Shown in pieces: positions 5,269 to 12,772 of a stretch of DNA of 64,000 nt. The notes below the pieces were generated by a model. It made no database searches, was not told the DNA's origin, and was given only the letters and a program-made list of their open reading frames with translations. Source of the DNA: Rhizobium sp. R711 (GTDB taxonomy: Bacteria; Pseudomonadota; Alphaproteobacteria; Rhizobiales; Rhizobiaceae); contig NZ_LOKZ01000001.1 of the NCBI RefSeq assembly GCF_002211365.1, positions 62,001-126,000 of the forward strand, read 5' to 3'. The translations under genes were made by a program, and so were the position numbers. The first letter of the stretch is position 1. The number at the start of each line of letters is the position of its first letter.

Positions 5269-7002
5269 ATGACGAAGAAGACACCTGATGAATTGCGATC
5301 GGCGCGATGGTTCTCGCCGGACGACTTGCGAAGCTTCGGCCACCGTTCTCGACTGATGCAGCTCGGTTACGCGGAGGAAGAGTTCCGCAACAAGCCAATA
5401 ATCGGCATCCTGAACACGTGGTCGGAATTGAACTCCTGCCACTCCCACTTCAAGGAACGCGTTCAGGACGTCAAGCGCGGCGTCGCGCAGGCTGGTGGCT
5501 TCGCCGTCGAGATGCCCTCTCTGTCCGTCGACGAAAGCTTCACCAAGCCGACCTCGATGCTTTATCGAAACATGCTGGCGATGGAGGCGGAGGAATTGAT
5601 CCGCTCCCATCCCCTGGACGGTGTCGTCCTGATGGGAGGCTGCGACAAGACCACGCCCGGCCTGGTCATGGGCGCGCTTTCCGCAGGGGTCCCTATGATC
5701 TACCTGCCTGCGGGGCCGATGCTGCGTGGCAATTATGCCGGCAAAATCCTGGGCTCGGGTTCGGACGCCTGGAAGTACTGGGACGAACGTCGCGCCGGCA
5801 ACATCTCCGATGATGAATGGCTCGGCATCCAGGGTGGCATCGCTCGCTCGGCAGGGACATGCATGACGATGGGAACTGCAAGCACGATGACGGCTATCGC
5901 CGACGCGATGGGCCTCACCCTGCCCGGCGCTTCCTCCATCCCTGCCGTCGACGCGAACCACCAGCGTATGTCCGCCGCTTGCGGACGGCGGATCGTGGAG
6001 ATGGTCTGGGACGATCTCACACCGGACAAGATCGTCACAAAAGCGTCTTGCCGGAACGCCGCGATCGTGGCGATGGCCACCGGCTGCTCGACGAACGCTG
6101 TCGTGCACCTGATCGCAATGGCACGGCGCGCCGGCGTCGACCTGACGCTCGAGCATCTCGATGAACTGGGGCGCGTAACACCGCTTATCGCAAACGTCCG
6201 CCCGTCGGGGAAGGACTACCTGATGGAGGACTTCTTCTATGCAGGAGGTCTTCGGGCCCTGATGAAGCAGTTGGACGACCGCCTTGACCTCTCGGCACTA
6301 ACCGTGACCGGAAAGACGATGGGCGAGAATCTGGAAGGCGCGCAAGTCTTCAACGACGACGTCATCCGCCCGTTGAGCAACCCCGTCTACCAAGAAGGGT
6401 CGCTTGCCGTTCTTCGTGGCAATCTGTGCCCGGACGGCGCGGTCATCAAGCCGGCGGCTTGCGACCCCAAATATCATGTCCATCAGGGACCCGCGCTCGT
6501 CTTCGACAGCTATGCCGAGATGAAGAAGGCCATCGACGACGAAAATCTCGACGTCACGCCCGACCATGTGCTGGTGCTGCGCAACGCAGGCCCGCAGGGC
6601 GGCCCTGGCTTTCCGGAGTGGGGCATGCTGCCGATTCCGAAAGCGCTGATCAAAAAGGGTCACCGCGACATGCTTCGTATCTCCGACGCGCGCATGTCCG
6701 GCACCTCTTACGGCGCTTGCGTCCTTCACGTCTCGCCGGAGAGCTTCATCGGCGGTCCCCTGGCGCTGTTAAGGACCGGGGACACCGTTCGCCTCGACCT
6801 GCCGAACCGCAGCCTCGACATGCTTGTCGACGAAGAGGAGCTTTCACGCCGTAAAGCGGCCTGGCAAGCGCCCGAGCCAAGGTTCCAGCGCGGCTGGGGC
6901 TGGATGTTCTCTCGCCACGTGACGCAGGCCGACAAGGGCTGCGATTTCGATTTCCTCCAGACTGATTTCGGCCGCGCAGCGGGCGAACCTGACATCTTTT
7001 GA
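5269..7002 (+). CDS. IlvD/Edd-family dehydratase (sugar-acid dehydratase type)
   Basis: 577 residues from the ATG at 5269, preceded by GGAA 7 nt upstream; the frame is open further 5' but without an SD. The three cluster cysteines expected for the [2Fe-2S] subgroup are visible: C57 (NSCHSHF), C125 (GGCDKTTPG) and C198 (SAGTCMTMG). Overall it resembles L-arabinonate/D-xylonate dehydratases more than branched-chain IlvD. The reaction would be dehydration of an aldonate to a 2-keto-3-deoxy acid. Position between a transporter and an RraA-like aldolase, in an island with KdgD, supports a sugar-acid substrate. The exact sugar is inference only. Confidence 0.88.
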   Translation: MTKKTPDELRSARWFSPDDLRSFGHRSRLMQLGYAEEEFRNKPIIGILNTWSELNSCHSHFKERVQDVKRGVAQAGGFAVEMPSLSVDESFTKPTSMLYRNMLAMEAEELIRSHPLDGVVLMGGCDKTTPGLVMGALSAGVPMIYLPAGPMLRGNYAGKILGSGSDAWKYWDERRAGNISDDEWLGIQGGIARSAGTCMTMGTASTMTAIADAMGLTLPGASSIPAVDANHQRMSAACGRRIVEMVWDDLTPDKIVTKASCRNAAIVAMATGCSTNAVVHLIAMARRAGVDLTLEHLDELGRVTPLIANVRPSGKDYLMEDFFYAGGLRALMKQLDDRLDLSALTVTGKTMGENLEGAQVFNDDVIRPLSNPVYQEGSLAVLRGNLCPDGAVIKPAACDPKYHVHQGPALVFDSYAEMKKAIDDENLDVTPDHVLVLRNAGPQGGPGFPEWGMLPIPKALIKKGHRDMLRISDARMSGTSYGACVLHVSPESFIGGPLALLRTGDTVRLDLPNRSLDMLVDEEELSRRKAAWQAPEPRFQRGWGWMFSRHVTQADKGCDFDFLQTDFGRAAGEPDIF

Positions 7003-7009
7003 GGTGACC

Positions 7010-7735
7010 ATGACCGACTACGCACTCTCCGACGAAACCCGCGCGAAGTTCAAGAAGATCTCGACGGCGTCCATCGCCACCGCCCTCTACAAACGCGGGC
7101 TGCGCAACCAGTTCATCCAAAATGTGGTCCCCGTCTCGCCGAAAGCCGAAACCATGGTAGGCCAGGCATTCACGCTGCGATACATTCCTGCCCGCGAGGA
7201 CCGCAATCCGATTACCGTTTTCCGTAACGCCGACCATCCGCAGCGCGTAGCGATTGAGACGTGCCCGGCCGGTCATGTGCTTGTTATGGATGCGCGCAAG
7301 GACGCTCGGGCGGCGACTGCCGGCTCCATTCTTATCACGCGACTTGCGCTGCGCGGAGCGGCGGGGGTCGTGTCGGACGGCGGTTTCCGCGATGCAGAAG
7401 GGATCGGGGCCCTGGACATGCCGGCCTATTACGCCAAGCCCTCGGCGCCGACGAACCTGACGCTCCACGAGGCGCTCGACATCAATGTCCCGATTTCATG
7501 CGGCGACGTCGCGGTGTTTCCCGGAGACGTCCTCGTAGGTGATCGAGATGGCGTCATGGTTGTTCCGGCCGATCTCGCCGACGAGCTGGCGGACGAATGC
7601 TCCGAAATGGAGTGCTACGAAGACTTTGTTCTGGAACAGGTAAGGAGCGGCGAGCCGATCATCGGTCTGTATCCGCGAACGAAGGAAGAATACGAGCAGC
7701 GTTACGCGGACTGGCGCGCCCGCGCCAACAGGTAA
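7010..7735 (+). CDS. RraA-like / HMG-aldolase-family protein
   Basis: 241 residues. GAGGTG just before the ATG at 7010 favours it over the GTG at 7004. The RraA/HMG-aldolase core is visible: GQAFTLRY, HVLVMDARKDARAATAGSIL and SDGGFRDAEGI, where the Arg-Asp pair is typical of class II pyruvate aldolases of this family. Close homologues are often labelled RNase E regulator RraA, but behind a sugar-acid dehydratase a retro-aldol split of the 2-keto-3-deoxy acid into pyruvate plus a short hydroxyaldehyde fits better (inference). It ends the plus-strand operon and is followed by a hairpin. Confidence 0.8.
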   Translation: MTDYALSDETRAKFKKISTASIATALYKRGLRNQFIQNVVPVSPKAETMVGQAFTLRYIPAREDRNPITVFRNADHPQRVAIETCPAGHVLVMDARKDARAATAGSILITRLALRGAAGVVSDGGFRDAEGIGALDMPAYYAKPSAPTNLTLHEALDINVPISCGDVAVFPGDVLVGDRDGVMVVPADLADELADECSEMECYEDFVLEQVRSGEPIIGLYPRTKEEYEQRYADWRARANR

Positions 7736-7742
7736 CAAGGAC

Positions 7743-11553: not shown

Positions 11554-12459
11554 TCATCTGACGGACTCGATCAGCGAACGCATCATGTCGACTTCCTCCT
11601 CGGTGAGATCGGTCAGGGGGGCGCGTACTGGTCCGGCGTCGAAGCCTCGAAGCCGAACTCCCGCCTTGATTGCCGAGACCGCGTACCCGCTCTTTCGGTC
11701 GCGAATCTTGGCGAAGGGGTAATAGAACTCGCGCAGCATCCGCTCGCAGGTCTCGTCGTCTCCAGCAAGGAAAGCCGCGTGAAACGCCAGGGCGGTTTCC
11801 GGCACAAAATTGAAGACGGCCGAGGAATAGGTCGGCATGCCTGCGCCGCGATAGGCCTGGGCGAAGAGCTCGTGGGTCGGCATGCCGCCGATGTATGACA
11901 GCCGGTCGCCAAGAGCGATCGTCACCCGGCGGACGGTATCGATGTCGCCTGTACCGTCCTTGAACCCTATTAGGTTCGGGCATTCTTCGGCCAGTCGTGC
12001 GAGCTGATCGGCGCAGACGCGCGCCTGCCCCCTGTTGTAGACGATGACGCCCATCTTCGTGGAGTTGCAGACAGCCCGAATTCGAGCTGCGATCCCTTCG
12101 GCGGGAGCCTCCGTCAGGTAGTGAGGCAGAAGTAGAATTCCATCGCCTCCGGCGGCTTCGATTTCGCGAGCCATGTCGCATGCCATGCGTGTTCCGTAGC
12201 CGCATCCTGCGATGACGGGTTCGGTCCCCACCACGCTCCGGGCGGTCCTGACGATCTGCGCCACCTCGGTTGGCGCTAGCGAAAACAATTCCCCCGTGCC
12301 ACCGGCGACGATCAGACCCGCTACGGGATAGGACGACAGCCATTCCAGGTGTTCGGCGAATGGTCGCGCGGCAAAGCGGTCCTCGGCGTCGAACGGGGTC
12401 ACCGGAAACGATAGAAGCCCGCTGCGGATGAGTTCACGAAGTTCAATGGGGGCGATCAT
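11554..12459 (-). CDS. kdgD: 5-dehydro-4-deoxyglucarate dehydratase (DHDPS/NAL family)
   Basis: 301 residues from the ATG at 12459, preceded by AGGAGA. A DapA-type TIM barrel: [11 protein letters not shown] at the N terminus, GGTGE at residues 53-57, the active-site Tyr in VIVYNRG (Y141) and the Schiff-base Lys in [10 protein letters not shown] (K167). KdgD decarboxylates and dehydrates 5-dehydro-4-deoxy-D-glucarate to 2,5-dioxopentanoate; relatives act on 2-keto-3-deoxy-L-arabinonate. The next enzyme of the route, the semialdehyde dehydrogenase, is present only as a 99-residue stump 13 bp upstream, so the product must be oxidised by an enzyme encoded elsewhere. Confidence 0.9.
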
Positions 12460-12472
12460 GGCGCTCTCCTGA

Positions 12473-12772
12473 TCAGTTGCACAGGTCTGGTGGGAGGAGT
12501 TCGGTGGGGAAATTCTGGTAGGAGACCGGATGGAAGCGTCGTGTCGACAAGGTTGCGACGCTGGTGGCGCCGAATTTGGTTGAAGCCGGGTAAGATCCGC
12601 CGTGAACCATTGGATCCACGACCTCCACGGCAGTGGGGAGCCCATTCACCGGGGCCGTGCCGGCTTTCTGCTCAAGGATGGGCAGCAGTGCCTTGGCGAC
12701 GCAAAGGTCGCCGTCCTCCATATGAATAGTCGCCGTTAAGCGGCCCTGAAAGGCCTGCACCAAGTCCTTCAT
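12473..12772 (-). pseudogene. C-terminal stump of 2,5-dioxovalerate (ketoglutarate semialdehyde) dehydrogenase
   Basis: The 99-residue frame matches only the extreme C terminus of NADP-type aldehyde dehydrogenases of the ketoglutarate-semialdehyde group: [33 protein letters not shown] and [13 protein letters not shown]. Full-length members have roughly 500 residues, so the cofactor domain and catalytic Cys/Glu are gone. The ATG used is internal to the ancestral gene. It sits directly after the operator-like element at 12814 and before kdgD, so transcription still crosses it; an internal deletion joined the promoter to the 3' end. A function for the fragment is unlikely. Confidence 0.85.

Follow-up and report, generated by a model that had tools for sequence, protein, structure and literature searches.

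The 64,000-nucleotide stretch of Rhizobium sp. R711 that we analyzed (positions 62,001 to 126,000 of contig NZ_LOKZ01000001.1, hereafter the window) carries on its minus strand what is left of an operon around an intact gene for a KdgD-like dehydratase/decarboxylase (11554..12459). Upstream of that gene, on the same strand, lie the stump of a putative alpha-ketoglutarate semialdehyde dehydrogenase (KGSADH; 12473..12772) and the promoter/operator region that remains from the parent operon (12773..12930). A second operon, on the plus strand, converges on the first and encodes an IlvD/Edd sugar-acid dehydratase (AraDh; 5269..7002) and an RraA-like protein (7004..7735). All coordinates are window positions unless a contig is given; L-numbers denote loci, G-numbers genomes, and C8 and C18 other contigs of the source genome. 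A sequence-only reading of this DNA had named a dehydratase, an RraA-like protein, KdgD and a C-terminal dehydrogenase stump, and all four are indeed present: AraDh scores 1128 bits on PRK13016, 'L-arabinonate dehydratase' (cut-off 882), the RraA-like protein matches Pfam PF03737 and scores 341 bits on PRK08245 (cut-off 208), the KdgD-like protein scores 415 bits on PRK03620 (cut-off 278), and the stump is 64-73% identical to the C-termini of intact KGSADH-family genes. The same reading had taken the dehydratase-RraA pair and KdgD for two ends of one pathway unit; they belong instead to two separate, convergent operons.

The stump keeps the last ~99 codons of its gene in an open frame. When it is aligned to the full KGSADH, residues ~402-505 of 505 are left, which do not make up the cofactor and catalytic domains of a full-length aldehyde dehydrogenase (ALDH), and the stump alone matches no Pfam or NCBIfam model. 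Of 67 columns that are otherwise invariant, it is altered at 13, as compared with at most two in each of 14 intact homologues. When 36 intact homologues and columns that are at least 95% invariant were used (the L117 SBP5 row, misaligned at 6% identity, was left out), the stump was altered at 11 of 54 columns and the intact genes, again, at no more than two. Six linked genes of the cluster are altered at 38 of 1334 invariant columns (0-4% each; Fisher p 2e-7 for the stump against them), and the stump also differs from the most altered of these genes (15 of 378 columns; p 4e-5). Judged by this conservation analysis, the stump is a decaying remnant of a putative KGSADH gene. A side observation concerns Paracoccus methylarcula (L159:9880-9942), where a 21-residue KGSADH remnant (86% identity, E 1e-6) lies just before KdgD and may mark a loss of the same kind that occurred independently.

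Relatives reveal the parent operon. In 15 distinct Rhizobium-type full loci, a GntR gene is followed by AraDh, a talarate/galactarate dehydratase, RraA, KGSADH, KdgD, a solute-binding protein (SBP) gene of the SBP_bac_5 family (SBP5) and Ldh2. The gene-content matrix holds 22 full-locus rows, 7 of which are contigs met twice, hence the number of 15 (with L057, whose KdgD is in two frames, counted among them); L049, with no regulator on its contig, was left out, and L131 was taken as KdgD-SBP5-Ldh2 only, since the AraDh in its row lies ~9.7 kb from the L131 GntR. The enolase-superfamily gene of the parent operon scores 666 bits on the curated L-talarate/galactarate dehydratase model NF047820 (cut-off 500) and also matches PDB 2og9 and 2pp0, while its AraDh type reaches 1137 bits on PRK13016 and its KGSADH matches the PDB 3v4c family. 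The KGSADH name is putative, resting on this 3v4c-type match and on gene context.

An operator block, TTGAWATA...AACTRAAATATYAGT, is common to the window and to the gap behind GntR2 in all 17 aligned relatives, L131 being the most divergent. In the window, KGSADH codons begin within about 45 bases of this block, which places the deletion junction within about 12773-12815. Measured on L116, the missing length is ~5 kb and comprises the AraDh, talarate/galactarate dehydratase and RraA genes together with four-fifths of KGSADH; as far as gene comparison can tell, at least four enzymes (both dehydratases, RraA and most of KGSADH) have thus been lost or truncated by deletion in the KdgD operon. The simplest reading would be one ~5-kb deletion that fused the operator region to KGSADH codon ~402. 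The claim that the last enzyme is missing locally therefore holds, as only a stump is left, yet it is not only the last enzyme that is missing: the operon has lost its two dehydratases and its RraA as well. Downstream of the junction, 13 bases with a GGAG site separate the stump stop from the KdgD start, an arrangement much like that of L116.

The KdgD, SBP and Ldh2 genes are all complete and lie 3' of the old promoter region. KdgD is 85-88% identical to Rhizobiaceae-type orthologues, matches PDB 4ur7 (E 2e-119) and is altered at 4 of 213 invariant residues, with no excess of unusual changes. We call it 'KdgD-like' because it narrowly misses the equivalog cut-off of the stricter KdgD model TIGR03249 (364.4 vs 373.95). 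The SBP_bac_5 protein (9700..11283, minus strand; PF00496) and the Ldh2-family dehydrogenase (8577..9653, minus strand; PF02615) are 80-86% and 74-81% identical, respectively, to their Rhizobiaceae-type orthologues, and the GntR/FCD regulator of the operon (12931..13641; PF07729 and PF00392), which diverges on the plus strand, is 79-91% identical to its own. Between KdgD and SBP5 lies the scar of a second DHDPS-type gene (11369..11554, minus strand), of which residues 9-30 and 276-298 of 303 are left; tblastn matches them to the complete L116 gene (E 2e-5 and 7e-6), as compared with a best E of 0.40 in three control gaps (L050, L118 and L251). Elsewhere, the KdgD of one Rhizobium genome (G039; L057:9040-9940) is found in two pieces in different frames, possibly due to a frameshift.

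When a full KGSADH of a parent operon was used as query, the genome yielded only one full-length KGSADH-family gene (C8:103179-104687), which aligns without stops over residues 1-503 of 505 at 74% identity. The remaining strong matches are the stump (12473-12772) and a C-terminal piece on C18; the other ALDHs reach 30% identity at most. The C8 gene belongs, by its neighbors, to a predicted hydroxyproline-type cluster, which includes an LhpI cis-3-hydroxy-L-proline dehydratase (951 bits, cut-off 700), a D-amino-acid-dehydrogenase-like gene (below cut-off), a DHDPS-type gene and a GntR-like gene. Genes at least 80% identical to the C8 KGSADH are listed in 19 other genomes of the genus (148 searched). 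In 38 of 80 KdgD loci, the stretch examined contains no KGSADH; 31 of these, with long flanks, were surveyed for a distant copy (7 short-flank loci were left out), giving 30 searchable genomes. A KGSADH is present at another place in 27 of them, in 25 as a gene near full length and in 2 only in pieces at the ends of contigs. It is therefore common for KGSADH to be missing beside KdgD and supplied from a distance, and the proposal of the sequence-only reading that a distant dehydrogenase completes the route gains support at the level of sequence.

The C18 piece (C18:42026-42442, equivalent to L058:8026-8442) covers residues 366-504 at 51% identity, with no full gene there, and lies between an apparent alpha/beta hydrolase and an enoyl-CoA hydratase, as judged by eye. 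On the same contig, an aldehyde dehydrogenase spread over two frames (C18:38817-40195; Pfam positions 73-461 and 1-78) is probably frameshifted.

Further genes adjoin the KdgD operon. At its 3' end lies an SDR dehydrogenase (7793..8539, minus strand, start uncertain; PF00106), which is not among the genes of the Rhizobiaceae-type loci L116-L128 and L134 and is outside the blocks that the window shares with L109 and L116. Beyond the regulator are a 2-hydroxyacid dehydrogenase (13648..14595, minus strand; PF02826), which is linked in relatives, and the cluster's Dpp-type ABC transporter genes (14592..18147, minus strand), whose DppDF are 79-85% identical to those of linked Rhizobiaceae-type loci. 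In a plasmid search, 547 records matched, none of them covering 80% of 9700-14000.

The second operon begins with a NitT/Tau-type ABC transporter (2398..5174, plus strand), from which its GntR/FCD regulator diverges (1535..2266, minus strand), and continues with AraDh and RraA. In the genus, 46 of 148 genomes carry the NitT SBP, the source genome counted in. The window AraDh is 95-96% identical to those in the NitT operons of three relatives and 73-74% identical to the parent-operon copy, and over 6.25 kb (1578-7827) the window is 90.9% identical to G059, where no KdgD operon adjoins. The AraDh-RraA pair (5269-7735) is thus part of a unit in its own right, whose convergence on the KdgD operon is incidental. 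We also considered that the pair had been excised from the KdgD operon and moved, and rejected this, as identity is 90.9% to the free-standing NitT operon of G059 vs ~73% and 65% to the parent copies. The NitT-AraDh-RraA operon (1539-7827) is common to G059, G168 and G186 with nearly equal ends, as if it were a mobile unit. A window-like layout was seen in Paracoccus marinaquae (L131:824-13646), with GntR directly before KdgD, no KGSADH, and AraDh-RraA 6-9 kb off on the other strand.

As to what could feed KdgD, the talarate/galactarate dehydratase is absent from the window, and the best of three MR_MLE_C matches in the genome scores 114 bits vs 500 (the other two, of 85 and 26 bits, were left unscanned). 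The sole GD_AH_C protein of the genome scores 386 bits vs the galactarate dehydratase cut-off of 731. KdgD is thus without a known supplier as well as without a local follower, since neither dehydratase was found as far as searched. The nearby AraDh may, by its position only, be a candidate supplier. This link is plausible because three Paracoccus KdgD operons (L124, L130 and L133) contain an AraDh and an RraA close to those of the window (85-87% and 78-82%). The PRK13016 name leaves the substrate of AraDh unfixed, as the parent-operon type scores equally well on that model, and PRK08245 bears only the name 'hypothetical protein'. A 2026 abstract (PMC13398020) states that activity of KdgD and of the arabinonate-route dehydratase has been reported on their native substrates only.

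For RraA, we take D-X20-R-D to be the motif of pyruvate aldolases of the HMG/CHA type, which have the RraA fold. The window RraA has Ser for the Asp of this motif and keeps the R-D pair, so the aldolase motif is incomplete; PDB 3noj, which it matches with E 1e-13, shares the R-D pair and has the Asp. The RraAs of the relatives' NitT operons share the Ser, and parent-operon RraA carries the Asp. Across 102 RraA copies (some contigs counted twice), the first position is S in 45, D in 45, G in 6, A in 3 and N in 2, one copy having no motif; PMC5065237 states that most homologues carry one of two motifs. In 20 hand-picked Rhizobium loci, 5 of the 7 Asp-type RraAs have a KGSADH close by and none of the 13 others does (12 Ser, 1 Gly), with a p of 0.001 that is only indicative because the loci are related. 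With seven NitT loci added, KGSADH is near none of 20 non-Asp-type Rhizobium RraAs. In 40 loci taken from the class, the Asp-type/KGSADH link fails, as KGSADH is near 0 of 10 Asp-type and 3 of 29 other RraAs (one was unclassed). Our literature search found no paper joining RraA with an arabinonate dehydratase.

Losses in relatives run partly in the opposite direction. Eleven Rhizobium loci have no KdgD and retain both AraDh and the talarate/galactarate dehydratase, along with RraA and KGSADH. A KdgD nucleotide match remains between KGSADH and SBP in 10 of them (E <=0.01; in L250 by 17 bases only, in L270 none), and both KdgD ends are visible in 7, typically as ~36 bases from the start and ~55-95 from the end of the gene. 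At the protein level, tblastn gives E <0.001 in 6 of the 11, 0.011 in L279, 0.07 in L245 and nothing in three, and shuffles of two-base blocks, used as a control, reached E 0.02 in 8 of 440 cases. Two Neorhizobium loci without AraDh and RraA keep the other dehydratase and KdgD, and three Rhizobium loci retain AraDh-RraA only. From this gene content, the AraDh-RraA and galactarate dehydratase-KdgD modules were therefore gained and lost largely separately. All 32 distinct KGSADH-bearing operons (7 duplicates removed) contain RraA or KdgD, a distribution that would fit a supply of KGSADH by either enzyme. We rejected the mutual exclusion of the two losses as a statistically shown rule, as 0 of 32 without both compares with ~0.7 expected by chance.

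We consider it highly probable that the window holds the remnant of a galactarate/L-talarate-type operon that was trimmed in place, with the distant KGSADH likely completing the route. The gene content, the junction, the decay of the stump and the full-length gene on C8 are seen in the sequence itself. KdgD, SBP and Ldh2 are left intact behind the old promoter region, from which they would still be expressed, and past the stump stop the KdgD ribosome-binding site is still present. If, as we infer, the activities and substrates are those suggested by the names, flux would pass from KdgD as alpha-ketoglutarate semialdehyde, which the C8 enzyme would most likely oxidize. The converging AraDh-RraA operon may now feed KdgD, as its position and the Paracoccus operons suggest. 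Several points weigh against this reading and need to be considered. Three of the 30 searchable genomes with KdgD and no local KGSADH had no distant copy, and our source genome is a draft of 39 contigs (99.92% complete). It contains 26 Aldedh matches, and there may be enzymes among these that use the semialdehyde as well. Neither the intact KGSADH of the operon nor that of C8 reaches the cut-off of any NCBIfam model, scoring 91-93.5 bits vs 770 on the alpha-ketoglutarate semialdehyde dehydrogenase model NF042993; the name is kept as putative because of this, and the model appears to describe another KGSADH type. Finally, the stump has an uninterrupted frame of 99 codons with a pairwise ratio of nonsynonymous to synonymous substitution rates (dN/dS) of 0.10-0.13, dS being close to saturation, so that the stump could retain a small function.

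One such function would be that of a leader, or of an open reading frame coupled to the translation of KdgD. The open frame and the GGAG-bearing spacing before KdgD, much as in L116, would fit this, but the short KGSADH-KdgD gap was already parental and the conserved positions of the stump show an excess of changes, making this explanation very improbable. A different explanation leaves KdgD idle or secondary and lets AraDh be followed by RraA as a retro-aldolase that releases pyruvate and an aldehyde, in which case no semialdehyde dehydrogenase is needed. The Rhizobium Ser-type pattern is the best point for an aldolase role of the window RraA: no KGSADH-family gene lies in the stretch around any of 19 Ser-type Rhizobium RraAs (12 and 7), AraDh adjoins RraA in them, and the R-D pair is kept. 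Nonetheless, the motif Asp is replaced, four Paracoccus operons (L124, L130, L132 and L133) combine a Ser-type RraA with both KGSADH and KdgD, and two further loci of the class (L205 and L208) have a Ser-type RraA with KGSADH. KdgD, moreover, shows no excess of unusual changes, and other follow-up candidates occur in 2 of the 19 loci (an ALDH and an HADH in L259, an HADH in L260). We thus regard the retro-aldol explanation as unlikely.

Somewhat less doubtful, and still short of an even chance, is the possibility that, in the parent operon, RraA and KdgD can stand in for each other. Each would give alpha-ketoglutarate semialdehyde, so that the operon would tolerate the loss of one or the other and would need KGSADH in either case. 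FlDet, a purified RraA-like enzyme and the only one we found reported on a comparable substrate, is described as a 2-keto-3-deoxy-D-glucarate dehydratase/decarboxylase that yields alpha-ketoglutarate semialdehyde and not pyruvate (PMC8563752). Its published 19-residue N-terminus aligns with three of our RraAs (1, 0 and 0 of 2000 shuffles reach the scores), a comparison with no aldolase N-terminus as control. The 11 loci that keep RraA and KGSADH without KdgD, with a KdgD scar in 10, and the two Neorhizobium loci that keep KdgD without AraDh and RraA also fit. On the other side, all 9 KdgD-less genomes covered in the paralogue search (9 of the 11 loci) carry a KdgD of 50-54% identity elsewhere that could compensate, chance alone predicts nearly the same distribution, and the window RraA is itself of the Ser type. 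The class-wide absence of KGSADH near Asp-type RraAs (0 of 10, against 3 of 29 others) led us to lower our confidence in interchangeability slightly. We accordingly propose only tentatively that the Asp-type RraA of Rhizobium galactarate operons would be a second dehydratase/decarboxylase, unrelated to KdgD, that makes alpha-ketoglutarate semialdehyde and is no retro-aldolase.

In-place trimming with a distant KGSADH, the reading we prefer, can be set beside known systems. The galactarate/L-talarate route consists of TalrD/GalrD, KdgD and KGSADH; the parent operon has all three and, in addition, the AraDh-RraA pair, while the window retains KdgD alone intact. The KGSADH of hydroxyproline catabolism, represented by the C8 gene, is of the same family as the parent-operon enzyme and is found in its own cluster. 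FlDet of Flavobacterium sp. UMI-01 (PMC8563752) is RraA-like with 237 residues and a similar N-terminus, and its product is that expected of KdgD; it differs in belonging to an alginate pathway and to the Bacteroidota, and is likened to the Rhizobium RraAs by its N-terminus only. The pruning of an operon in place is an ordinary kind of event, and here its scars are unusually readable. It illustrates that, when a catabolic step is lost from an operon, the product of a gene at another place in the genome may take it over. The reciprocal losses, in turn, give a testable reason to seek activity in the RraA-like subfamily of sugar-acid operons. If the tentative proposal is true, one step would be served by two non-homologous enzymes, RraA and KdgD, and the deletions in either direction (of KdgD in 11 relatives and of RraA here) would be natural tests of their redundancy.

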